Shown here: positions 46,627 through 64,000 of the stretch, one piece after another
Numbering within the stretch: position 1 is the first letter of the stretch
Layout of the letters: the number at the start of each line of letters is the position of its first letter
Source of the DNA: Pagrus major
Lineage: Eukaryota; Chordata; Actinopteri; Spariformes; Sparidae
Assembly: GCF_040436345.1 (NCBI RefSeq)
Contig: NC_133225.1
Coordinates: forward strand, 24,730,540 to 24,794,539
Reading direction: 5' to 3'
DNA length: 64,000 nucleotides
The notes under the pieces: generated by a model
The model's input: the letters and a program-made list of their open reading frames with translations, nothing else
What the model was told of the DNA's origin: nothing
The model's database searches: none
Program-made: the position numbers and the translations under genes

Positions 46627-49600
46627 GACTGCTTCCTGTGCCTGTGTGAGCTCGTGCTGCAGAGGGAGCTGCTGTAACGTTGAATAACCGGAATAACCCA
46701 AACAGAGAAGAAGAAGGTCAAAACAATGTTTCTTTACTCATCATAAAGAATGTTTTAGGTTAAAAGGCAGTATGAGGTTTTATAAAGTAAATGTCAAATA
46801 GCCACATGAGGAGTTGAGGACAGTGACCAGACCAGAGCAGATGACCAGGCTGCCACTAAGCTTATTCAATGACAAGGCAGTCCAAAAACACCATGACAAC
46901 ATTGTTAAGAGAAAGTTAAACTCAGGTCATGAGTTCAAATGCCCTCAATCAACTAATCTCAGATCAATCTGACCGGTTAGGATACCACAAAATTACAAAT
47001 ATTTCATTTTTCATTTGTCATATTTACTGTAAGATTTTTTGTTCTTTTTTTTTTTTGTAGGTCTTATTTCCAAACATGAAGAACTAAATGTGTTTCAGTA
47101 CAGTTCTTTATTTTTGTGTTGGATTACAGTTAGACTTAATAGACGTGTTAAAATTGCAGAATGTAAATTCCCAGACAGATTCCAGAGGACAGGTCCTCGG
47201 CGTCAGAAAGGTATCTACAGTCCTGCATGTTTGGTTTCTTGGTTTGCAGAAAGGAGCCTCCTTCATATGAGAGGTGGTGGGGCTGTAGTCAAGATTTTAG
47301 AAATACTGATGTTTGCAGTGCAGTGGGACCAAGACCCACTTAGACATTTGACCCAAAAATAAAAAATAAGCCAAAATAAGATCTATATAATGTCCAAATC
47401 AAACATTTTGACTACTTTGGGGTATTTAGCTGTTAAAATAAAGGTTACTTTCTCTAAATGTTATCTCATACATGAAGATTTAAATGCTGCTTCAAAAATT
47501 TCTCAACAAGTCCATAAAATACTAAATGCAAGTTGCATATACCTGTAGAAGATGAACATTTTCTCAGGTTGTTAAAACTGTACGGCCCACTGACACTGAT
47601 AACTGGTATATAATATTTATCATACAATGTAATGGCAAACAGATGCACCAAATAGATGGATAGATACTCTTCTGGTTATATGGCTCCCTCCAGTGGAGTG
47701 ACTTTCATGGTCCACATTTTATTTTTCACATTTTTTATTTTTCAAGCAGATGTTTAAAAGTTCTCTATGATGACAACAAAAAAGATTAAACTAAACAAGA
47801 CTGCCAGGTGCTACAATTTTATGGAGGTTATGTTTATATAGTGTCTGCAGAGGTGTGCAGGAAGCTACTGAAGTATTGGCAGCCGGATATCAGGATTTAT
47901 TATTTTTAAAAAATGAAACATGTTTGCAGGATGTAACAAAAAAACAAAAAACAAAACATAAAATGACTCCATTTAGCTTGTCCAGCGTCATCCAAGTCAA
48001 CAGACGCCCTGGGATCCCAAATCTATTTGAAAAGATGTCATTTACAGCCCCTTTTTAAGCAGAAATCTTCACTGTATCTGCTAAGCTAAAACCAATTGCT
48101 TGCACCCTGTCTGTGGGAGCGAGAGCTTGAGCCTGTCGAGGGTGTAAATAACATCTTCTTCAAATCAATTTGGGATCCCCGGGCTGACGAGTTGAACAAA
48201 GCCATTTAATTTTTTTATTTTGGTTGCTTTTCTCACATTTTAGTCCCCATCTACTTCAGTTGTTGAGGAGAATGCTGGAACACTGTTTTGCTGTGAGGCT
48301 TCAGAAATGTTTTGTAGACTACATACATTCACATGACTTTCCATCAGCATGAGCGTGAGTAGATAATAACAGAATTTTCATTGATGAACTTATCCTTTAA
48401 GATGGCACTAGAGTGGTTCATGTGCTGTGCTGCCCTCCAGTGACCAAAAGCAGGAACACCGAGAGAAACATAAACCCTGCTGAACACTCCACACCTCTCC
48501 TGTTTTCAGTTTATTTATTGTTGTGCACTGCACTTGATCATTATGTACATCCTGTAACGGTCAACATAACTGAAAAGGAGCACATGAACAGAACTTTTAC
48601 ACAATTTAGTAATACTTGAACAGCAGACAGGCAAACACATAACGTACAGTAGTCTGTATCCAAATCGGACCACTTCCATACATACCACGACTTCAAACAA
48701 CACACATCCATTGACTACGATATAGAGGTTAGCTTTTTAACATAGCCGTAAGATTGCGGATAGAGAACTCGGTCAGCGAGGGAGCTAATGGAGGTTATTT
48801 CACATGTAAGTCCTCAGTGTAAATAGAGAAGCAGGTACTACACACCTCCTGTGTCTGTAAGTCACCAAAGAAAGCCTTTAGATCAGACGTTTTCAGGCCC
48901 AGTGTCTTATTCAGGGATGTGATCCAGCTGAAGAAACGGACATACTCTTTTTATCCACTCATCAGTATTCAGTTCTTAATGTAGATAAACAAACTGGTGA
49001 TCCTGGGCGATAATGAAGTCCAGCAAAGGGGGGAAACATGATGGTTAACATGGATTAAATGCAAAAAAATCATCCAATTCTTCATCTAAATCTCCAAATT
49101 AGAGAGATAAAGACTGAAATCAGTAAAGAAATAAAGAACAATCACATGAAGGCAACAATTCTGCTGAATTTGCATGTGTTAAAACTGATTATTAACACAT
49201 TTTTGAAGTGATAACAGCTGTCAAACATCAGGATAAAACAGCTCAAGAAGGTTTTTCACTAGAGATCTGTCAGTAACACAAAGCTGGAAGTTGAGGATGT
49301 TGTGAGATCGAATCAGTGTCCTTCCCTCAGTTTCCGCTTTCTAACAGGTAAATACATACATTTTGTTGTTGCATATGTTTGTCATTGGCCCACGGACCTA
49401 ATCCTAGGACTATTCAATACTTTTCCACACAAGAAGATAATGTCAGAAGTCAATTTCCATCATACGGAGGATCACATCAGTCAGCTTATAAGTGAAATTA
49501 CATGGAGAACAGCACCTGCAACACTCACAGCTGATGCTTTAAGACTGTGGGTTGTACCTCACTGTTGATATGTCAGTATTATTCATCCAGAGAGAAAGCT

Positions 49601-49874
49601 GCATGATAATTATAAATAAAAGTGTCAGTGGTGTGACAGAGATGTCAAACAAACTTAAATAAATTACATGAAGTGATACAAAAAACTTTCAATGGGTGCA
49701 AATCAGTGTTGCAATGACAGTAGAGATACAGTATGTAGGATATGAGTGAAATTAGAGATATGAAGCAGTGAGATACAGTAAAGCACATTAATTCAATCAT
49801 CAGTCTTACAGTTTACATATCATCTTATGAGATACAGTTCTGCAAAGAGAAAAATCAAAGGTGCAGCATTGCAG

Positions 49875-50507
49875 TGTTAAACCCTCAAAGACCTGAACAA
49901 TTTCTGGGGTGCCTGACTGTTTTTTCTAACAGCCAGCATCAAGTGCCGAACATCATTCGATTCAGGAGAACCTTAAGTTTTTGTCTTACTCATTTAACGT
50001 CCCAATTTTACATCTGCTTTGTCTGAGAAGGGATGGCTTTACTGGAATTTTTAAAAAACACCATTAAAAATGGGATGTTTTCTTCACTGTGAGCTCAGAC
50101 AGAACGTCAGGAAGTTCAGTTTTTTGAAAAAAAAAAATGTGTAGATGGTCGTTACAAAAGTATCTTGAAACTTGTGTAATTCTATATTTTGAATTTACAG
50201 ATCATGTAGATGTTCAAAGAGAGTAAATAGAAAGGTTTAAAATTAAAACAGAGGACACTGAAGCAGAAGTGACTTTTTTCAGAGCAATATATTATTCATT
50301 AAACATAAACAACAAAAGTAGCTCGGCTGCTGGTGGGTGTTCTTGACGAGTCAATGCTCAGAACGTGATGCGTATTCAGGTTCACTATGGTGCCCTGGAA
50401 TGCCAAAACAAGAAGTGTGTCACCACGCAAAAGCTGAGAATCTCTCATTTCAGAGCAATAGCTACTTTTAGTCGTCGATGGCTGTCTCGGTCTTTGAGGG
50501 TTAAACA
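49875..50507. mobile_element. piggyBac-like MITE (TTAA-flanked)
   Basis: The ends are inverted: TGTTAAACCCTCAAAGACC at 49875-49893 and its reverse complement at 50489-50507, with one mismatch. Both ends contain TTAA followed by a CCC-starting inverted repeat, which is the signature of piggyBac elements (TTAA target duplication, CCC ends). The left end has one extra A between TTAA and CCC. The 633-bp interior encodes no transposase, so the copy is non-autonomous. Confidence 0.65.
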
Positions 50508-51254
50508 CATTCGTGCAATTTCAGTCAGATGGAAACAAAAATTGTAAATGTTAATGGCCTGAGACACTGAAAATGTCCTTTACATACATTAGCTGATGAT
50601 ATGTGCAGTTGCTTTCAACCAAAATGCAGCAGGTCTATCACACAAAGCAACAAAATGAAGATGAACAAAACAAACTAATAATAAATAAATAACAATGGCA
50701 TTCCTTCAAAGCTGCACCAGGTAAAGTTTGTGCTTTCAGCGCTACCTTACAAAAACACACATATGAGTGAGTACGCATGAGGCTTTGATGTGCTTCATGT
50801 TCGAAACTGTAAACGTGCTAATCCTGAAATACAGCGTACAATCCCCAGTTCCCCAGAAACACACACGGCTTGATTACATCACACACACCGGTCAAAGATC
50901 TTTTTGTTAATCTGTCGCATGAATATTAAGTCAGGAATTTAAACTGCAGCAGCCTTCTGACCTGTGTTTTTTTAATTTTTTATTTAAGTTTAATTTTCAT
51001 TTATCTTTAGCGACTAAATTCGAAAGTTAATGATGATGAAACCAACCTGTAATCAGAGTTACAGTCAGAAACAGTAACAGCACTTTGCTTCCCATCTCTT
51101 TGCACTTTCATAACACTTCTAAATAACACAATAACAGGGACAGACTGATTATCAGCCTGGCCCATTATCAGGGCTGATATTCTGCATTTTTTTGCTAATT
51201 AGTAACGTTGTTTTTGGTGTCCGATTGCTGATAATTGCTCTGTGGTCTCAGTCA

Positions 51255-51700
51255 GTAGCTATGTTTACATGGACAATATGTCTTCAATCCGATTGAAGAT
51301 TTTGGGTCAACTGTTTACGTAGGATTGGATCAACAGGTCTGGTGTTTACATGCAGCAACCGATTTAATAGGAACAGCTGTATGACATGCTCAAGAGATAT
51401 GTTATGTCATGCATTCCTTTTCCTCATTCGATATTTGACCTCTTTCGGCACATGTCTTTATCAGCTTCCTGTCCTGAAGGTGAATATCTATTGTCTAGAT
51501 GTATTTAGAGTTCTTAAGTATTATCTTAAGTTTGTATTAAAAACAAACTCGCTGCAGTCCAATTCACCTTAGAAGCCACCATCTCTGTAAGTGGAGAAAC
51601 GTATGTCACTACGCATTTACGTCAAGATGATGGTCATGAGCAGAAAGAACGCAGCCAGAGAATATTCTGCTTATATCATTTACATGGGACAGTTTTCATT
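51255..51700. mobile_element. Possible MITE (TGTTTACATG-type)
   Basis: AGCTATGTTTACATGGAC near 51257 is followed by another GTGTTTACATGCAGCAACC at about 51341. A reverse relative, ATATCATTTACATGGGACAG, is near 51673-51692. The TGTTTACATG motif is usual at the ends of a common fish MITE. Pairing of ends is loose and boundaries are guesses. Confidence 0.3.
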
Positions 51701-51924
51701 TTGATCAGTTTATGAAAAAGCTATGTAATGTACAATGTAATTTTGGGGAAGAAATTTTAATCAGAAGACAAAGATCTTTATTGGCTGATTTTTCTGTGCC
51801 TGTTTAGGCTTTTAAACCGATTATAATCAGAATACATGGCTACTGTCTCACCCACAGCACTATCTGATTGGTTACATGTCACAAGTAATAGCCAATCAAC
51901 ACTGAATAATCTGAATCTGTAAAG

Positions 51925-52035
51925 TAACTAATACCTAAAGTTATCAAAACAATGTAGTGGTATGGAAGTACAAAGTAGCAGAAAATGGAAATATTCAAGT
52001 AAAGTACCTCAAATTTATAGTTAGTTACATTCAAT
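51925..52035 (-). mobile_element. Dispersed TIR element (AAGTA-rich family), fragment
   Basis: GTAACTAATACC, GGAAGTACAAAGTAGCAG, AAAATGGAAATA and CAAGTAAAGTACCTC occur in order. They are the reverse of the element at 21833-22047 and 61949-62343 and closest to the fragment at 39228-39335. Non-coding. Confidence 0.5.
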
Positions 52036-52681
52036 TTTGACACAAAGAGTTTTTTCTCTTCTTTACTAATAATCTTTATCAGTCGATCTCTAATTAGTTC
52101 TTTCTTTTGTGCTTGATTTTGACTGAGAACAGGTCTGGTTTTAGTTCACTTCCACTCCAATCAGTGAAAAACATTTAATAAATTAATGCTGCTGTTGTTT
52201 CGTGTATTTCTCACATGTTATTGCATTAAAATATGTATGACAGAACTGATCACGGACCCAATTTTCACTCAAAGTACAAATCAAAATCTATCTCCCTAAA
52301 AGAACGTGGATTGATTGCTGTTAAATGGTTTTTGTGCCTTACAGACTATCTGGCGCTCTGAATCCCGTCTTTCCAGCAGTCTGTGAAAAGCTTCTTCAGT
52401 TTTCTCCCTGATGTGTTTTTCTCTTATCATCGTCTTCTCTCTCTGTTTGATCTGACTCCTCTGAATCAAGCCTGTCTCTGTTTCTCTAGACATCCCGGTG
52501 ACATCTGCTTTGATCGGAGGGTTGGTTCAGAGCTAAGGACACTCAACAAGGAAGGACAATGTTGCACCACATACATACAGTAGGTTGGTACATCTGAGCT
52601 ACAGGGAGTCATCAGTTCAGTTACACTGTTAGTCTGGAGTTCTGTAGTCTGTTGCCGTCTTTGCAGATCAACTGGATGTTA

Positions 52682-52707
52682 TGTGTGTGTGTGTGTGTGT
52701 GTGTGTG
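52682..52707. repeat. (GT)n microsatellite
   Basis: An uninterrupted TG/GT dinucleotide run of about 26 nt, in the presumed auxilin 3' UTR. Confidence 0.95.
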
Positions 52708-52856
52708 AGAAGTACGGGTCAAAGCACAGGTATGAAGGCAGATGTTGTAGGGTTTGGTTGTGGTATGTTGACCAGAAGTGGTGACACGTTTTTTAGGATT
52801 AGATGACAGAATCAGCAGGGACGTCCTCTCCTCGCTCACGTCTTCTCACTGTTTGT

Positions 52857-55800
52857 TCAGTAGAGGGGTTTTTGTCCTTGGCTTTCAAATTCTGACCAGG
52901 CGTCATTTAGTTCCATGAAAATCATCTTGGCATATTGTTCATAGGGCTGTCCTGTCGCCTGGGCGGGAGAAACATAGAAGGAAATCAAATTAAAATATGT
53001 TGCACTTCAAACGAGTCATGCAAAGCAGGTGTTTTACCTCTGGCAAATCACTTGGATATAAAACACCTGCTTTGACATATCATCAAGCTGCATGTGACGT
53101 GAAAAAAAAGAGGAACCTGACATACAATCACCCACAATATCAATGTATTCTCACACAGGTGAGGAACCACTGAGGGAAAAAAGTAGGTGACAAATAACTG
53201 TGGCTTAATACAAACAATTCAGAGAGGGTGAAAACAACCAACAGGTTTAAATAACAGACTAAATAATGGACAAAAACCTACAAAAGATTCTCAAAGAAAG
53301 CTCACAGTTAAAACTACAAAATGCTCAAAATTGTCTTCAATTAAAAGTTTGAAGAACCTCCTGTTCTTGGCTCATTCCATGAAGTTATGAATGAAAAAAA
53401 AAGTCTCTAGTAATTTGTAATAATTTCGGGGGTAGACTCTGATGGATGCAGGAGGATGCAGAGGTTGTGTGATAATATTAGTCATGTGCAAATCAAAACG
53501 CCGGTGGTTCAGGGTTATTTCTTTTTAAACATCTGTTGTCAAAAATACTTTGCATATCTGTGTGAATATGGGACATGAAATCACATGAGGTCCCCTGTGG
53601 ATATTAGTCCTGTGTGACGAGGGCACAGGTCACCATTATTTTCTTATACCTGTTTTGTTTATTACTTTTTTATTGTGTTTCTATTTTATGCCTTACTTTT
53701 TAATGTGAAGCTGCTGATGACTTATTTAAGTCTTCATGTTCTACATTTTCCTCTTGCCAATAATCAACGTGTGTGTGTGTTTAAATGCTGGGAGTATAAC
53801 TATAAATGTACCGTTTGTTGCCTGTAAGTCTGAGTGAAATCCTGTTTGCTTGTAATGATTGATTAGCAGGTGTTTATCTTGTGATTCACTCACTGGACAC
53901 CTCTGGATTGGGTGCATTTTGGGTGCTTGTTCTGATAAAGAGGGGATGAATAGAGGAGTGAGAAGTCCTATATTTTCTCCTCGCATTCATGCTGGTGATG
54001 TCTACCTGCCATGAGCTCACGACAGATCCTCGAGACATAACCTGAATCCCCAGAAAGTAAAAAAAAAAAGGCTGCTCTGAAGACTGAAACCACAGGTGAG
54101 GTTATTTTACGGGCTGCTGTTATGATGTCTTTCTGTTGCCATTTGTAAGAACTTAGGTTTTCTGAGCTGTTGTGAGTGATTCTCTGTTCTCTGTATTCTT
54201 TCCACAGGTACAAACTGCCTTCAAGATGATGTTGATGGTGCTGGTTTTCTGCTAGAGCCTCTACATGACGCAAACACATCCATAAAAGTGCTCTAGCTTC
54301 CTCCTCTAACTGTGAAGATCCAGAGCCTTTGACTCCTATTGCAAGGATGCCCCTGATCATACCTGTCCTAACACTGATCTTGGTGGAGTCCATCCTGGGA
54401 GCTCCACAGGCGATAAAAGCACCAGACGTACGTGTAGACGATATCAATATTTTCCTGACTATGGCATGGCAAGTAGCCAACCACATAAACCCAAATTCCA
54501 GCTGTTATGTCTGCGGCCTAATGCCCAACACAGCTGGAGAAGGCTTACCTCTGATGGCCTTACCTGCCTCTGACTGTGACACCTGCCGCCTCATGCATAT
54601 TCCCTCGCCTCAGTCTTATTCTCACCCTGATTGTACCCGAGTCTCCAAAATGAGACCACTTAACTGTTCTGGACGACACACAAACTGCAACAGATGTCTC
54701 AAATCCCCAAAACCCGTTCCCATAAATATGATGCCTCAGCCGTTCCCGTGGTGTCTCGAGAATGATGGCAAGACACCCGTCGGACAATCCGACTGCCTGC
54801 GTACATTCAAATGGCAACCCAAACACACCAATATGGGCTTTAAGTCTCTGGATTCTGCACCTGAGCGCTGCTTGGCGGCAGCAGGCCAGGCTCGCCTCAG
54901 CGCTCTAGCTCACCGCACTGCTACCTGCTCCATCTCCTCTCCTGTGGGAATGTACTGGGTATGTGGAAACCTCGCATACCCGTATCTTCCTGTGGATTAC
55001 AAAGGACGCTGTGGCTTGGCATACATCATCCCGGCTATGAGAGTGGCTCACACCCTGCCTCACAAAAGTCCTCCTAAACGAGCACGACGTGGAGTTTCAG
55101 ACATCTTTGGGACTCATCATCAATCGGCTTTCAAGAATGCTCTCGGCCCCCTTCTTCCTTTTTACGGAGTTATGTCTGCGTTGGATCAAATCGCAGATCT
55201 GTCTCATGCAATTGAAGTCATAGCTAATGAAACCGGTAAGGCTCTCATGCTGATATCGAGTGAACTTGCCTCTGTTAGACTTCTAGCTTTGCAGAACAGA
55301 GCAGCTTTGGATTTTCTTTTGGCAGCTCAGGGAGGAACTTGTGCTGTTATCGGTTCTGAATGTTGTACCTTTGTGCCTGACTATAATGCTACGATTGGTG
55401 ATATAGTAAATCATCTTCATTCAACTGCTAACTCCGTTCACCAGGAGAGTAGTTCTTTATTTGATTGGTTGAAAACCACTTTTGGATCACTGAGATATCC
55501 CCTTACTGAAGTGATAGTTATTTTTGTTGTTATCATTGTTTTACTGTCTTTGTTTATATCATGTGTGAAAAAGTTCATATTCAACTGTTAACTTTGACAA
55601 CATTAATGATCGTTGGATGTTAAATGTCTCTTTGATCACAGTTAAATCAGCCTGAGACTTCATGACTTTTCCTAATTTTATGAGAATTGCTTATAAACAT
55701 GATTTTAAACCAAAAATAAGATGTCTGCCACCTTTTTCTGTTTGGGTTCTCAGAAACCAAAGGTGTAAACATAATAAAACATAAATACACTGGGTGTTCA

Positions 55801-58800
55801 TTTGCTCTGTATCTATGAATGGTGTTGAAAGAACTTTTTGGGCCACACAACCCCTCGGTTTTGCAACAGTTTGAAGTCTAACCTCTCAGGCGTCTAATTG
55901 AAACCAAAACATAAGTAATGTGCGTTGGCCCTGGAGCTCAGCGCACTGCAACTTAATAAAAACTATAGGTAGGTATAATGGTATACTATGAAGGTTATTC
56001 GGTTATTGACTGTGAGAAATATGTGTGAAATGATTTTGTGTCTTGTTAATGCATTCTTTCATTCATTCATTCATTCATTCATTCCAGGAAACCATTGATA
56101 AGTAATACTATGCCAGAATGTTTGACTGGTCCTGGGTTTGATACTATTTCTGTAATAAATCATCTGAAAGTAAAAACCCTATTAAATCAGGGTCTGTGGT
56201 TTAATTTGCGTCAGTTTGGGGCTCCTTGACCTTTGACAACCACTGCCCCATATAACATATAAACATTTCAAACTTTTCTATTTCCTTATTTGGTATAATA
56301 GCACCGCTTTATTATTAAGGGTAGAAGAAAAGAAAAGAGTGTCTGTTGGACCCTGGACAACGAGGAAGTAAAACCAACATCTACAAAACATGAGGGTTAA
56401 TAAAAGAGAACTTGTTCGGACAGAGACGCATTGTTTTCTCTCCCTTTATGCATACAGTTAAAGATCCTCACTTTCAGTCGACTAGTCTTTATCTGTCTCA
56501 CCTTATCTGGGTGGACGACCAGGACTGCTTTGCGGTAGACCTTCTTGACCTGCTCTGGAGTAACCAGGTCAGCCATGCCTACAGGCTTCCAGCGCGTCTC
56601 CCCCTCCCACAGAACAGTATGCATGGTGGACAGCAGAGCACGGATGTTACGCTCCTTCCCCTCGATCCAGTCCAGAATCTGGGTCACAAACAGGAGAGGG
56701 AGAGAAGCCATTAGCTGTTGATGACCAGATTTGGAACAATAATTAGCAGAAATGCTGTCAGTGATTTTGGCGGGTCTGGTGAAATGCTTTTAAAGGAGCA
56801 ATTAGAGCAACCAAGTTTGGTCATGGGAGACCTACATTGACCGCTTCGTTAATTCTGGAATAAACAGAAAGGCTTTTACAGCCAAAGGTTTTTGAGTGCA
56901 CCACCCTACTTTTGGGGATCACTGAATCACTTCTATTGTGCAACACAGGTTCAACAGATGACAAAAAACCCACTGAACTGAAGTCAAACTGTAATTCTGC
57001 TCTGATGTCGTGACACAAGTGTCATGGGACTTTATGTTGTTTTTACAGAAAGTTCAACAGCAAACACAGATGTTACTCAGTATCCCATCAGAAACACAAG
57101 CCCCTACCTTTATTTTCTCAGGGTCCATCTCTTTGGCCATCTCCTCCTTCCTCATCTCTGCTATAGTCCTGGGCCCTTTCTTCTCTTTGGTGCCTGCAAA
57201 ACCCTGACCGGACAGCAGGTCGTCAAAGTTGGCATCCGAGGCCTTGGGTTTAGTACCTGACAGAGAGGAATACAAACAGAAATACAGAAAACATTTATTT
57301 AAACTACTCATCAACTTTTAACCTTGAACTATTAGATGAAAGATCCTCTGAACGACTGACTGAGTGGGTCTACAGTTAATGTGTATTACAACTATCTCTC
57401 TGCTCTCTGTCCTCAATATATCTATTGTTATCTATTGCAGCTTATGTGACGTCGGGTTGAATTTATTTAAACTGTAAACTCTCATTCCTACAAAAATGTA
57501 ACAACTTCACAACCTGACAACATTTGCATCATCACAGACAATATGAAATCTAATCTCCTGCTCACCCATGCTAGCCTGTGCTTTGACTCCTGCGCTGGGC
57601 GAGCCCCCTCCCATTGCGGAGAAGCTGACGTTGTAGTTGGGTCGGTTCTGGGGCGATGTGTGAGGCATGGGGGTGTGGCTGGGGCTGGGCTTTGGCTGCG
57701 GGGCGGGTCCCTGTCCTTGGGGTTGCCATCCTCCAGCACCTCCAGCACCTCCAGCACCTGGCTGCCAAGAGGGGAAGCCGTGCTGGGGAGACGGAGGAGG
57801 TCTCGATGGGGAGCCCATGGGAGGGATGAAAGGGGTAGATCCAGTGGGAGTGGTGGGTTTGCTGGAGAAGCCAGAACCTGAAGAGAGAAAGGAGATTATG
57901 AAATAAAACATGTCATGGAAATAATAAAGATATCAGTTCATGTACTTCAGTATATCTTCAGTGACTGACCTCCAAGGCTTCCTCCAAGGTTGCCTATGTC
58001 AGCGAACGGGTCCAAGGTGTTTGGCTTGGTTTGGTGGGTGGGGGTGCTGTGGACTGAGCTTGTGGGACTGGTAGTGGCTGACCGACTGCCCATACCAAAG
58101 CCTGCTCCTGGATAAATCAACAGTGACAAGAGAAAACACTTGAATTTTAGTTCTTTTGATTTTTAGCATCCAGTTCCAAAAGCTTGCACTCATGTGAATA
58201 CATACTTCAGTGTTGTTTAAGTGTATGTGTGTGTGTGTGTGTATGTGTGTATGGTTGGGTTACAGGTTTCACCTGTGCTTGTGGTAGCGGTTCTGTTCCA
58301 GTCCCATCCTCCCATGGGGTTTTGCTGCTGAATGTTTACGGTCGGGGTGGTGGGTGGGACGGGGGAACCCCGGCCTATTGAAGCAAATAAAGGTTTGTCA
58401 CAGACTGAGCGCACAGTGAATGGGAGCTGAGCAGTGTGAACCCACACAGCCGGAGAAAATAATAGCAGGACTGGGTCTCATGTGAGGCGTCAGAGAGGCT
58501 GTCGGATGTCTAAACAGATCCAGTTGGTAGTTCTTGAAAATAAATATTTCTATGGATAATTTCTTGCTTGCCGTAAATAGCAACCTTTAATTTCACATTT
58601 AAAACATAATTGTCTCATCTGTATACTCTCTTTGTTTATCTAGCTTTTGTTTTTGCTTTTATGTTTGTTTTTTGTCTGCTGATACTAGATTTTCTTCCTC
58701 AGGTTCTCCGTCTTGTTACTTTTCTTTTCCTTTTTTCAGAATACAAATATGTATATATATATACTCACTGCAAACAAATGTAAAGGCCTACTGGGGTGGG

Positions 58801-61800
58801 CCTTGTTGGGTATTAATTGGGTTTTTTGTTGCCACTGGTCTGTGGAAAAATGTGTTGCCACCAATAAAAAAAGAAGAAGGATATTTCCTTGCTTAAAAAA
58901 CAGCAAAACTATATATACATACAAGTTTTAGGCCCAATCCACACTTGTTTTAGAAGCTTTACTGTGAGCTTAAGGTAGGTTCAGGCCAGCAATAAACATT
59001 AAAGGTGCAATATTTAAGTTATTAACTTAAAATTTACAAAAATTATCACCAAAATGAGAAGAAATTTTGATATTATGACATTTATGTATTGTGCTGCAGA
59101 GATCCACTGATGTTAACATGCCAACCAGCTAGCCCCAGCCTATCCTGGTCCAAAGCTCCTGAGCTAGCAGTATAAACATCTACATGTCCCCAGTGCTCCA
59201 AGCCACCAGTCCGGACCTGAGCTAACAAGCTAATGCCAGCTACAGTTAGCAGCAGTTAGCGGTTACTTGAGTGATATGCTGCCCGTTATTTGTCTTGGGT
59301 TGTGGCCAAGTTTTACACATTGAACCTTTAAATGTTACTGTCAATTTTACAATCCTACACTGATTGAAAAGCCCACTGATAATTTTTGCTTCATCGTGCA
59401 CACACTGCTCTGTAACAAAGTGAAGTCTAAAGAAATGTCGACATCTAATGTAGAAGAATTGTCCTGCCATGTATGAACTTACAATAATGGCTGTGTGAGG
59501 AGTTCAGGCTGATGGGGAATTATTCATGCTGGAAGTGAAATATGCAAGCTATGCTAACAATGCTAATCAGACAGGCTGACATACATCATGCAAACCCATT
59601 CATTGCCAAACATACAGCAGCAGTATAAAAAAGACTATCTCTAGCAAAGCTGGTGTGTGAGTAAGCTTATCAAAATGAAAAACTACATTAAAAACAGTGC
59701 AGTTAAATGATTCTTTGGACAACAACAAATAATAAAATGTGTTTCATGAGCGGAGATGATCACGATGCATGAGGCATTGCAGCAGATACTGTACAGTATA
59801 ATGTGCCTCACCCTGATGTGGACTCCTTAAGGTTTTATTGCATTCATAATGCTGTGAGAGAGTGCAGCAGAGCAGCAGAAGCATGCCTTACCCAAGCTTG
59901 TAGGCTGGAGGGTGGGTGATGGAGAGCGAGCAGCATGCAGGAAGGGGTCTGGCTGCCCCACGTTACCTGGTCCAAGGAATGAACCCATCATGTCCTGAGG
60001 TTTGGGCATGGGACCGGCCCCGAAGGGATCAAACGCTGAGGGAAACAAATATAATCACCTTTGTTATTGTCTTACTTGTTTGATTTTATTTTCTTTGCAT
60101 TTGCATTACAGAATGTGTCGCGTTTCTTAGTGTATTTTCAAATACTCTAGTTTTCCAAATGAAACAAGCAAAAAGAAAATATGTTAGTAGCGTGGGATCA
60201 TGGGAGTTGCTGTCCTCATTTTTAAACAACCACCACTGCCGATGAAAATCTCTCTATGTGACTCAGGCAGAAATGTTCACAGACGAGTTCATGTCTGAAA
60301 GTTTTATTGATGTTACTTTTAGTCACGTTTGCTGACTACCTTCCTCACTCTCTGACTTTCTTCAGCAAGTTATAGTGACAGGTGCCCAAATCAAACACAC
60401 CATTGCCCTGAATAAAATATGATATCTATACCTATAAAAAATGTTTAAGGTCCTCTCTAGAGTCCGTGTTTAGTTTTTCCTTTCTGGGCTACTGTAAAAA
60501 CATAACACACACACTGGACCTTTAAGATCCACTTCAGCTCTCATGAAGACCTGATTGAAAGCACCAGAAAAATCCAGTTGGTGGACCTTGACTTAAGATC
60601 ACTTCGTCAGGCTCTTTTTTTTAATTTCACGAATGATCTTTCATGCTTCATGAACTTATTTAGTCTCACCTGGCGGCGCAGGAGATGGACAAGGCGAGGC
60701 AGTGTTTGGGGCTACTTTATGTGGTGTGGACTGGGCCGACGACGGCCCACTGGTTGGCTGCGGTGGCCCCCCGAACAAGTCCCCCAGGAGGTCAGTGGCT
60801 GTGGCTGCAGCCTGCGGGGGCTGAGATGAAGGACACCGGGGGTTGATGTCCTCCCCATCGAGGCCAAGAAGATCCACTTCCTCAGCGGGTGCAGGGGCGG
60901 CCTGCGCTGCAGCAGGAGGGTCGGGTTTCTGGGGGGCCGCGCTGGCGTTGCTTCGCTGGCTGGAGAGAGAGAGCATCTCGTCGTCGGAGGGCTCGCTCTC
61001 CTCGCAATGGCCGCGACCATCTGGACCTCCGCCGGGCCGACTCGGCTCTGCAGAAAGAAAATGAAAGAGGCAACGAAAGAAGGAGACAGAATTGAGACAG
61101 AAGCATTCAAAGTGGAGATAGTAGAGCATGGAAGAAATAACAAAGCAGGAAATTAACTGGAAAGTCGACATAAATACAAACTAGTAGCTACATACGTTAC
61201 CTCCACCTCCTATTCTCCTACAGTCGTGTGAGCACATATTTCCAAAACAACCTTAAAAAATCTCTATTCACAAGAATCCAATCAGTAAAACATACAGTAT
61301 GCGTTAAAAGAAGGGATGGGATGTACAATATGACTATAAACCTCAGCTAGTAGCAATCTAGAGCGATATCTCACTTTGGTAGAATATTTTAAAGTTGTCT
61401 TCCTTCAGCTTTTAAAGCCCCCCCCCCCCCAGTTCTTTGTATCCACAAGGTTTCTTAGAAACTTTTCTCTGGATACTGAGTTGAGAAATCCACTGGTCTG
61501 CTTTCGTCGGATATCAAGAGACGTGTTTAAGGGGAATTATTTACAGTAGTAATTTATATATGCCCCCACAGAATAAAGATAGAGAAGAGAAGAGAAGAGA
61601 AGAGAAGAGAATAAAATCATCCACCAAAGTGATATATCACTCTGTAACAAGGATGGGGTTCTTTTCAATTCAATCGATACCGATTGTAAACGGACACAGC
61701 CAAGTGATTTTCCAATAACAGACGATGTATTCGTCAATAGAGTCAATCAGTATGATTGAATTGAGCCAAACCTGGTTAACTACTGTCACTGTACTGATCA

Positions 61801-64000
61801 GCTTCTCTAACAGGTCTGTGGTCTCCTCTACCGTCTTACCCTCCAGATCCAATCCCTCCATCTCATCTTGTAGGAACAAAAGTGAGAGTTGGTTCATTAG
61901 TTTGTTCATGTGTCTACATGTAAACATATGGCAGTGTGTTTTTGCATGTTAGTACTTTACTTGAGTATGTCTATTTCATGCTACCTTATAATATAATATT
62001 GCACCATATATTTTACTTTACATCTCACTTTTAAGATTGATGTTTTACACAAAAATGATATAATCAGTTTATAAAATATGATGGATTATTATAGATTAAA
62101 CTACCCAACAGTATATGAAGTAGCCTAGTTCAAATTAGCTCCATATTGACCCACTTAGTCAGAACATTAAGGTAGCGATTACATATTGATTCATCAATAA
62201 TGATCCAATAATATAATATAACACTGATGGGTGGCATTCTGCATAATTTGCACTTTTACTTTGACACTCTGAATAACCTACTTTTTTTTTAAATAGTATT
62301 TCTACTTTTACTTAGGTGATTTCAATACTTCTTCCACCACTAACTATCTTACAAATTCATGCATAGAAATGTGTGGCTGTGTATTGTTCACTTCTTTCTA
62401 TCCTGGTGAGAACAAGTCTATTTTTAGGCTGAGTGATAAAATCAATTATCACGATATTTCTGACCAAAATGCCTCGATGTTGGTACTTTCACAAAATATT
62501 AACACAATGAGATTTCTGACCAATAATCATCAGTAATGAGGATATAATGACTAAGTAGGTAAAAGCACAAGGCTTTTACAGCACTTTTGTGTCAGAACCA
62601 AGTAAGATCTTTTAATTAAATATCAACAATATAATCACTGTTATATTTTTGTTTAAATTCCAAGCATTTAGTAGCCACTGTGGACGTGGATACTTAACGA
62701 GCTCCCTGTATCATGATTGAGCTTTTCAGAAAGGCAGATGACAGAGAAAAACACACAAACGCTAATGACTCAAGTGTGTGTACAGCATGTTGTTGATTAA
62801 ACATTATGTGAGCAGAGGCAGTTTGTATAGTATTGTACCAGCGATTGCCAGTGCATCCTGATGCTCCTGGTGGCAGGAGAAGAGCACGTTGGGGCTGAGG
62901 TCTTTACAGGGGAACTGCTCCCATGGCGGCGTCAGGTCTTTTTGTTTGTCCACCCCCTCCACCTCTATATCCAGTATCACGTGGAAAAGCTGAGGATACT
63001 TCTCAGGAGAGTCGCACGCATCCAGCTCCGGTCTGAGAGGAAAGATGGATGAGAGAGAAAATGGAACGGGCAGTGTTGTTTTCAAAATATGTTTCTCTGA
63101 AAATTATGATTTTAGTTTTTCCTGCCATTTTCACACAAAACTGTGATTAAATAGAAGAAATGTCCTCACTTGTTAAACTTTAACATGGTGGTACCAGGAG
63201 CAATGAAGCCAGTGTGGAACTGGATCTGGAAGATCTGGGTGTTGGACACCTGACAACAGGAGAACAAATGTATTTAATATGTCTGCTGTTTCTCCCAGTG
63301 TTTCTGTTGGAGGAAAGCCACATCTTTCCATGAATTCAGGATGAACAAGTTCACTCTCACTTCTTTCCTCCTGACAGTTTGTGGGTTTGTGTTTGGATTC
63401 AAGATGCACAAATATTCAAATAAGTTGCAACCACATCCTGAGACAGTTTGATGGCTGATACATCAGCTTCTGGTGCCAATTAGATTATTTTCCCCACCAT
63501 TGTCATGTTGTTTTTGTCAAGTCTGATCAAGATGTTGACTTAATCAGTACACAGACATGTTTTGTAGAACACTGTTTCTAAACAAATGGGACGGGACGCT
63601 GTATAAAATTCATTTTCAAACAAACTGTTGGCTGACAATGACATTCAGTCTTTTGTTGCCCCTGTCTCGACTTGTTTAAAACAGTTTGCTGATATCAAAT
63701 TCAGAATAAGCATATATTAACAGAAACCAAATGATGTTGATGAGGAAAAACATTAAATATATTGTCTTTGTACTGTTTTTAATTGTGTAAATGTCAAAAA
63801 GGATTTGCAGATCACATTCTCGTTTATTTATGTTTTACAAAGCGTCCTAACTTGGAATTAGGGTTCTAGTTTTGTCCCTCCATGGATGCTGCTACTTGCA
63901 GTCAAAATACTCAGTAGGATGCAGAGTAGAGCACATGAAGTTTACCTTGGCTTGAAGACGCCCTCCAATGGTCGACCTCATGTGGTAGACTGAAACGACG
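52857..64000 (-). CDS. dnajc6: Auxilin (DnaJ homolog subfamily C member 6-like), 5'-partial
   Basis: Twelve minus-strand exons: 63946 to beyond 64000, 63170-63249, 62839-63032, 61795-61866, 60670-61047, 59892-60035, 58273-58374, 57970-58107, 57566-57877, 57108-57256, 56502-56678 and 52857-52958 (stop TGA 52857-52859), about 634 aa. Order: end of the PTEN-like C2 region ([31 protein letters not shown]), a long Pro/Ser/Gly-rich linker with adaptor and clathrin-binding type motifs ([35 protein letters not shown]), then the J domain with HPD at 56505-56513. Auxilin recruits Hsc70 to strip clathrin from vesicles, chiefly at synapses. The C-terminus GQKPLY and the [18 protein letters not shown] block fit DNAJC6 rather than the paralogue GAK. 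The region that would separate the two best, a kinase domain in GAK only, is outside the window. The donor at 61794 (A|GTACAG) was chosen because only it keeps frame into the next exon. Confidence 0.85.
53021..53074. repeat. Perfect 16-bp inverted repeat beside the last auxilin exon
   Basis: CAAAGCAGGTGTTTTA at 53021-53036 and its exact reverse complement at 53059-53074 are separated by 22 nt. The structure lies in the last intron, 62 bp from the acceptor side of the terminal exon (52857-52958), so in pre-mRNA it would form a stable hairpin near the branch-point region. Confidence 0.85.
54096..54207 (+). other. Predicted 112-bp intron in the leader of the env-like gene
   Basis: A good donor (CACAG|GTGAGG at 54096) and a good acceptor with a pyrimidine-rich tract (TTCTTTCCACAG| ending 54207) lie upstream of the env-like ORF and remove no coding sequence. 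A spliced leader would mean the ORF is carried on its own short mRNA. This is a prediction from consensus sites only. Confidence 0.45.
54226..54255 (+). other. Small upstream ORF before the env-like gene
   Basis: ATG ATG TTG ATG ... TAG encodes nine mostly hydrophobic residues and closes 91 nt before the env ATG. Another short ATG frame starts at 54265 and ends at once. Such uORFs could lower translation of the main ORF. The hydrophobic string may be chance. Confidence 0.35.
54347..55591 (+). CDS. Intact retroviral envelope-like protein (captured env gene)
   Basis: A single open frame of 414 aa. The first in-frame ATG is 54347; the frame is open upstream to a stop at 54266 without another ATG. 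Features in order: hydrophobic signal peptide (residues 1-18); a cysteine-rich surface part with CXXC (C53, C56); a furin-type site KRARR ending at 248; a transmembrane part with a helical heptad-like stretch (about 313-331) and CX6CC (C332, C339, C340); a membrane anchor (about 389-407) and a 7-residue tail. Sequons are at N50, N106, N294 and N347. CXXC with CX6CC is the arrangement of gamma-type envelopes, in which the two halves become disulfide-linked. At 414 aa it is short for a retroviral Env. I see no gag, pol, primer site or LTR nearby. It lies antisense in the last auxilin intron. An intact env without the rest suggests host retention, like syncytin genes. It may be percomORF of spiny-rayed fishes, which is unproven here. 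Polyadenylation signals follow at 55773 and 55955. Confidence 0.85.
   Translation: MPLIIPVLTLILVESILGAPQAIKAPDVRVDDINIFLTMAWQVANHINPNSSCYVCGLMPNTAGEGLPLMALPASDCDTCRLMHIPSPQSYSHPDCTRVSKMRPLNCSGRHTNCNRCLKSPKPVPINMMPQPFPWCLENDGKTPVGQSDCLRTFKWQPKHTNMGFKSLDSAPERCLAAAGQARLSALAHRTATCSISSPVGMYWVCGNLAYPYLPVDYKGRCGLAYIIPAMRVAHTLPHKSPPKRARRGVSDIFGTHHQSAFKNALGPLLPFYGVMSALDQIADLSHAIEVIANETGKALMLISSELASVRLLALQNRAALDFLLAAQGGTCAVIGSECCTFVPDYNATIGDIVNHLHSTANSVHQESSSLFDWLKTTFGSLRYPLTEVIVIFVVIIVLLSLFISCVKKFIFNC
55773..55778 (+). terminator. Polyadenylation signal for the env-like gene
   Basis: AATAAA on the plus strand lies 181 nt after the env-like stop codon. A second AATAAA occurs at 55955-55960. Either could end a short plus-strand mRNA inside the auxilin intron. 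Confidence 0.4.
56059..56084. repeat. (ATTC)n microsatellite
   Basis: A clean ATTC tetranucleotide run of about six units in the last auxilin intron, 3' of the env-like gene. Confidence 0.9.
58219..58252. repeat. (GT)n microsatellite
   Basis: GTGTATGTGTGTGTGTGTGT-type dinucleotide run with one or two interruptions, 21 bp from the auxilin exon at 58273-58374 on its donor side. Confidence 0.85.
58999..59331. mobile_element. 333-bp MITE in an auxilin intron
   Basis: Inverted ends TTAAAGGTGCAATATTTAA (58999-59017) and TTTACACATTGAACCTTTAA (59312-59331) pair as TTAAAGGT[G/T]CAATrTkTAA. The interior is rich in GCTAGC/GCTAACA-type words, as in the common teleost MITE with TTAAAGGT ends. No coding sequence. 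A separate piece ending CACACTGGACCTTTAAG at about 60508-60524 may be a related fragment. Confidence 0.65.
61418..61430. repeat. Poly-C run
   Basis: Thirteen consecutive C in an auxilin intron, an assembly-sensitive homopolymer. Confidence 0.9.
61582..61610. repeat. (AGAGA)n microsatellite
   Basis: Pentanucleotide GAGAA repeated about five times in an auxilin intron. Confidence 0.9.
61949..62343 (+). mobile_element. Dispersed TIR element (AAGTA-rich family), longest copy
   Basis: The copy starts with AGTACTTTACTTGAGTATGTC and ends TTCAATACTTCTTCCACCACTAA. Between them lie ATCAGTTTATAAAATATGATG and ATTATAGATTAAACTACCCAAC. It is the fullest of four family members in the window, sits in an auxilin intron and is non-coding. 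Confidence 0.6.

Follow-up and report, generated by a model that had tools for sequence, protein, structure and literature searches.

A gamma-type envelope gene, very probably percomORF, antisense within the last dnajc6 intron of Pagrus major

The env-like gene and its host intron

The window (the whole 64 kb stretch of Pagrus major DNA that was analysed) carries, at positions 54347–55591 of its plus strand, an ORF that runs from ATG to TAA and specifies 414 aa plus stop, within a stop-to-stop opening of 440 codons. No ATG ORF exceeded 188 codons when the 64 kb window was simulated 60 times with a first-order Markov model, so that this frame lies far above chance length. Pfam analysis of the product returned TLV_coat (8.9e-17), while its closest relative of solved structure was human Syncytin-2 (4.2e-15). 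The AlphaFold model was weak (mean pLDDT 56.5), its TM part being too weak for use, and a Foldseek search with the SU part only had no hit with E of 0.001 or below.

The predicted protein displays the organisation of a gamma-type Env, including the CXXC in SU and the CX6CC in TM. A putative signal peptide (residues 1–18, 54347–54400; the exact cut being a prediction) was assigned by hydropathy, with a 19-residue mean of 2.13 from residue 1, and is followed by the SU thiol motif CYVC (residues 53–56, 54503–54514), both cysteines of which are present in all 59 full-length homologues compared below. The cleavage site RARR occupies residues 245–248 (55079–55090), while an immunosuppressive-domain-like block together with CX6CC extends over residues 315–340 (55289–55366), the block beginning at residue 315 and CX6CC spanning residues 332–340. 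A membrane anchor was placed by hydropathy at residues 387–407 (55505–55567; start approximate), comprising a hydrophobic run at 389–407 with a 19-residue mean of 3.45 from residue 389, and leaves a very short predicted cytoplasmic tail of seven residues (408–414, 55568–55588). Four sequons were identified (N50, N106, N294 and N347).

Coding exons of dnajc6 (auxilin) lie on the minus strand on both sides of the ORF, which is consequently antisense within the last dnajc6 intron (about 52959–56501). The penultimate coding exon, which carries the J domain (56502–56678), and the last coding exon with its stop (52857–52958, coding 52860–52958) are bounded by AG/GT signals, and their joint match to auxilin J-domain structures scores 2.1e-58. 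In 47000–64000 an ungapped search, which old LTRs bearing indels could escape, detected no direct or inverted repeat of at least 40 bp that could represent an LTR pair, nor any such repeat common to both ORF flanks. The flanking region holds 85 stop-to-stop frames of at least 55 aa (frames over the ORF included), and in the 20 of these that were tested by Pfam no gag or pol domain was found, the only matches being two below the cut-off, namely the dnajc6 J domain (4e-4) and a stray CBX7_C (0.089). The ORF thus stands alone, in the parts tested, in an intron whose host gene is conserved. The intact frame, the gamma-type hallmarks, the antisense placement in an auxilin intron and the lack of an adjacent LTR, gag or pol had been proposed in the first-pass annotation and were all borne out within the scope just given.

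Among the candidates scored, matches to the flanks in the rest of the genome are confined to pieces of 42–144 bp, at about 69–94% identity. Short dispersed-repeat pieces flank the ORF at 53459–53540, 55646–55711 and 56092–56230. Scans for bacterial-type promoters, for Rfam families (gathering threshold) and for tRNAs yielded nothing useful in the window.

Relatives, shared insertion site and conservation

In the Pagrus major genome (786 Mb, 25 contigs) the ORF is present as one copy, a second not being found, among 58 gamma-type env matches, itself included. The nearest long relative, L002 on contig C6, is 43% identical over residues 33–409 and carries one stop, and stops are present in L003 as well. 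An env locus on contig C15 was recovered as two pieces (40% and 42% identical, five stops in one of them), and a partial relative on contig C8 is 53% identical over 119 residues. A frame-by-frame Pfam search of L002 and of L005 (C15) located RNase H above the cut-off upstream of env in both, together with a weak integrase match, below the cut-off, upstream in L002 (2e-4); the method therefore does detect pol beside ordinary ERV envs. L002 and L005 are decayed ERVs, the nearest long relatives of the ORF in its own genome, with envs 40–43% identical to it.

A protein search (7999 candidates scored) returned 75 relatives, 66 of which are 61–91% identical to the ORF (P0001 at 91%), while the remainder show 44% identity or less. 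The database is biased toward intact frames, and only proteins of 0.55–1.75 times the query length are admitted by the search, so that broken or lost orthologues would go unlisted. Species names are attached to 23 of the 66, and all 23 belong to Percomorphaceae (NCBI taxonomy), representing five major clades. In the gene tree the ORF and the 66 relatives form one clade with support of 100/95, in a tree whose bootstrap is not fully settled, which has several long outgroup branches and in which 16 of the 73 inner branches remain open. Some of the named species group as predicted by fish relationships: three gobies join a cardinalfish, the atherinomorphs fall together, and perch groups with stickleback, wolffish and sculpin; Paralichthys, standing apart from other flatfishes, and Epinephelus, from other Perciformes, are weakly placed. 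A scan of viral contigs returned no relative. Among the more distant proteins, P0068, P0069 and P0070 (39–42% identical to the ORF) share the GTHHQS motif behind the cleavage site but have a shorter SU, and may constitute a sister family.

The insertion site was compared by aligning the 75 proteins to the window and retaining matches beyond the ORF on its own strand. The C-terminal end of P0032 (Dicentrarchus) matches the antisense J-domain exon (56388–56708, E 2e-40), that of P0063 (Mola) the antisense dnajc6 intron beyond this exon (56812–56965, E 2e-5), and that of P0066 (Menidia) antisense dnajc6 at 57124–57195 and 57710–57895 (E 9e-9 and 9e-6, respectively). A weak dnajc6 match of P0054 (Xiphophorus, E 0.064) was left out of the count. 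On these alignments, at least three other species have the gene at the same dnajc6 site and in the same orientation, the site evidence coming from three of the relatives, while the models of 62 others do not extend into the surroundings. An orthologue at this site in other percomorphs, proposed beforehand as one part of a check on capture and retention, was thus encountered. The insertion is common to Eupercaria and to Ovalentaria, and a capture that was recent or independent is therefore disfavoured. The Dicentrarchus and Menidia models exit the ORF within HR2 or directly behind the cleavage site, then continue into antisense dnajc6. If real, these chimeric models may represent anchorless or SU-only forms, annotation artefacts being possible.

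Conservation was counted over 59 full-length rows out of 67, after eight partial or chimeric rows had been dropped (P0032, P0049, P0054, P0057, P0062, P0063, P0065 and P0066). In these, invariant columns number 110 of 414 when gaps are disregarded and 108 with no gap, and 18 cysteines (17 in the ectodomain plus C406) are kept in every row. The tree length amounts to 11.5 changes per column, at which, by our own arithmetic and with equal rates at all sites, essentially no invariant column would be expected. Constraint is distributed unevenly along the protein: block 313–345 stands highest, with a mean of 0.97 and 23 of 33 columns invariant; two SU blocks score 0.95 and 0.91, HR1 0.90, the fusion-peptide region 0.87 and HR2 0.78, and the pre-anchor stretch 373–386 has no invariant column among its 14. 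The bias of the database toward open frames affects intactness taken by itself, but does not explain the pattern of conserved sites. The cleavage motif RXXR is present in 67/67 rows and the stricter RX[KR]R in 55/67, the other 12 having weaker sites (RVQR, RAPR or RVPR), while CX6CC is found in 65/67, both misses being cut or chimeric models. Additionally, the sequon at N294, which lies inside HR1, is kept in 58/59 rows, heptad register aside; an N-glycosylation site at a heptad-repeat 'stutter' is given, in a passage of PMC8278194, as occurring in a subgroup of gamma-type Envs. The earlier suggestion that selection acts on a captured gene is supported by protein conservation across the 59 rows rather than by dN/dS, and on this measure selection appears to have kept the ORF as a host gene.

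Identity and possible function

Henzy, Gifford, Kenaley and Johnson reportedly described percomORF in 2017 (Mol Biol Evol 34:634-639) as an isolated ORF lying in the intron of a host gene that is widely conserved. The first-pass annotation had named this gene as its candidate, and the isolated intact gamma-type env, the intron of a conserved gene as its place, the percomorph clade and the site common to at least three other species all support that choice. We consider it very probable that the ORF is percomORF, captured before the sampled percomorphs diverged and kept by selection; a retroviral gamma-type env would have been captured once before these fishes split, the provirus being no longer visible. 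The identification rests on published descriptions of percomORF, rather than on a direct match to published sequences. As far as these descriptions go, both are intact gamma-type envs, isolated in an intron, found in spiny-rayed fishes and very old, percomORF is described as being under purifying selection, and no feature was found to separate the two. PercomORF is counted among the oldest vertebrate env captures that are still intact in parts of PMC8672886 and PMC10072453, its host function is listed as unidentified in a passage of PMC9967133, and it receives further mention in PMC12841672. The relevant passages of PMC9967133, PMC8672886, PMC10072453, PMC11575397 and PMC13431525, among which an age of over 100 million years is given for percomORF, contain no experiment on it, and literature searches combining dnajc6, endogenous retrovirus and fish, or retroviral envelope and Percomorpha, returned no further study of the gene. 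Pagrus major thus adds one more species to an already known gene, while the window supplies its exact locus and a leader whose splice acceptor is probably conserved. This leader, the locus in dnajc6 and the fixed short tail were derived in the present analysis.

The cytoplasmic tail is short throughout the family, measuring 6–14 residues in 59/59 rows and 6–8 in 57 of them (the other two having 11 and 14). By comparison, the tails of outgroup ERV Envs comprise 32–53 residues in the six of nine outgroups measurable by the tail rule (P0070 stops short of the anchor, and P0072 and P0075 did not yield to the rule), and gamma-type Env tails are usually of 25–35 residues according to a passage of PMC9967133. 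The C-terminal R-peptide that belongs to the tail of a gamma-type Env is absent from the ORF. Judged from its sequence, percomORF is derived from a gamma-type Env but has a tail without room for an R-peptide. The cited passages on percomORF do not describe a fixed short tail. The Envs of the ERVs L002 and L005 in this fish and that of Cololabis saira (P0067) are likewise gamma-type and 40–43% identical to percomORF, yet differ from it in having pol pieces upstream of env (L002 and L005) and in tail length, which is 43 residues in P0067 and long, by eye, in L002.

Translation would yield a type I membrane glycoprotein, which cleavage at RXXR would split into SU and TM, the two being joined by a CXXC–CX6CC disulfide. 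The R-peptide normally keeps gamma-type Envs inactive until the viral protease removes it. According to a passage of PMC9967133, truncation of this peptide restores the fusion activity of MLV. Since a tail cut to 6–14 residues lacks the R-peptide, the protein is expected to arrive at the surface in primed form, where a receptor could trigger membrane fusion between host cells. In our judgement, the most likely role of percomORF, on which we place about even confidence, is that of a cell-surface fusogen primed without a viral protease, and the fixed loss of the R-peptide makes this priming a testable prediction. The merely mild hydrophobicity of the TM N-terminus (median 0.79, versus 1.66 in Syncytin-2) was considered as a sign of a decayed fusion peptide; however, values in related ERV Envs are just as low (0.55–1.19) and this explanation was rejected. 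The weaker cleavage sites in 12/67 rows, together with the lower conservation of HR2 (0.78), fit a pure fusogen less well.

Syncytin-2, a captured human env, represents an independent capture of low identity to percomORF. PercomORF occurs in fishes that lay eggs, and placentation can therefore not be its general role; as the term syncytin combines cell–cell fusion with a placental role, we would not class the ORF as one on its sequence. That percomORF might be a non-placental fusogen used across the percomorphs, freed by early loss of the tail and maybe antagonised by spliced anchorless SU forms of the kind hinted at by two gene models, is a proposal that we advance as doubtful.

The two main alternative roles would involve the same captured gene. 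It is conceivable, though we think it unlikely, that percomORF is a restriction factor whose surface or secreted SU occupies the receptor and bars related retroviruses, given that ERVs with pol remnants and env in the same genome indicate that such viruses infected these fishes, and that the Dicentrarchus and Menidia models depart from the ORF ahead of the anchor, in keeping with a secreted blocker. However, those chimeric models may be annotation artefacts, and a blocker has no need of fusion machinery, yet RXXR (67/67), the fusion-peptide region (0.87), HR1 (0.90) and CX6CC have been kept. An immunosuppressive-type peptide in TM, or another signalling role without fusion, is improbable in our view: block 313–345 is indeed more conserved than any other part of the protein, but its motif is tied to the SU–TM disulfide, a common vertebrate immune target is hard to conceive (from a passage of PMC11575397), and the two SU blocks are likewise strongly conserved.

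The abundance of gamma-type env relatives in the genome (58 matches, the ORF included) is what an independent, lineage-specific capture or a young provirus remnant merely resembling percomORF might draw upon. This origin, the former part of which the first-pass annotation had kept as its alternative, found no support, and we regard it as highly improbable in view of the 91% identity to P0001, the single clade with 66 relatives, the same dnajc6 site in three other species, and the lack of a repeat pair, gag or pol domain beside the ORF in the parts tested.

Leader and predicted transcript

A short 5' leader intron is predicted on the plus strand at 54096–54207 (CAG/GTGAGG ... TTTCCACAG/GTACAA), its donor at 54096 and its acceptor ending at 54207 being consensus-like by eye. 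In the protein search, 13 upstream extensions were listed, of which two were too short and 11 were tested against 200 shuffles; three exceeded the shuffles (P0001, P0027 and P0041, the last narrowly at 7.8 versus a shuffle maximum of 7.6), while eight gave no match to the window leader beyond the 200 shuffles. The extension of P0001 matches the window just 5' of the ATG, whereas the upstream readings of P0027 (54175–54219) and, narrowly, P0041 (54201–54215) match it across the acceptor. The frames in which P0027 and P0041 match the leader differ from that of the ORF here, indicating that the frame is not kept in the leader. That the ORF is open by chance and under no selection is scarcely credible, as the database bias toward open frames and the reliance on proteins rather than dN/dS are outweighed by 414 codons against a simulated 188 at most, by 18 invariant cysteines and by a matching leader in which the frame was not kept.

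The minus-strand frame that overlaps the 5' end of percomORF (53971–54504, 178 codons, stop-to-stop) has no Pfam match. The pattern of matches suggests a leader that is conserved but untranslated, with a likely conserved splice acceptor at which splicing is predicted. A candidate polyadenylation signal, AATAAA, is situated on the plus strand 182 bp past the stop (55773–55778). The gene would thus be expressed from a plus-strand transcript, opposite to dnajc6, with a short 5' intron and a poly(A) site of its own.
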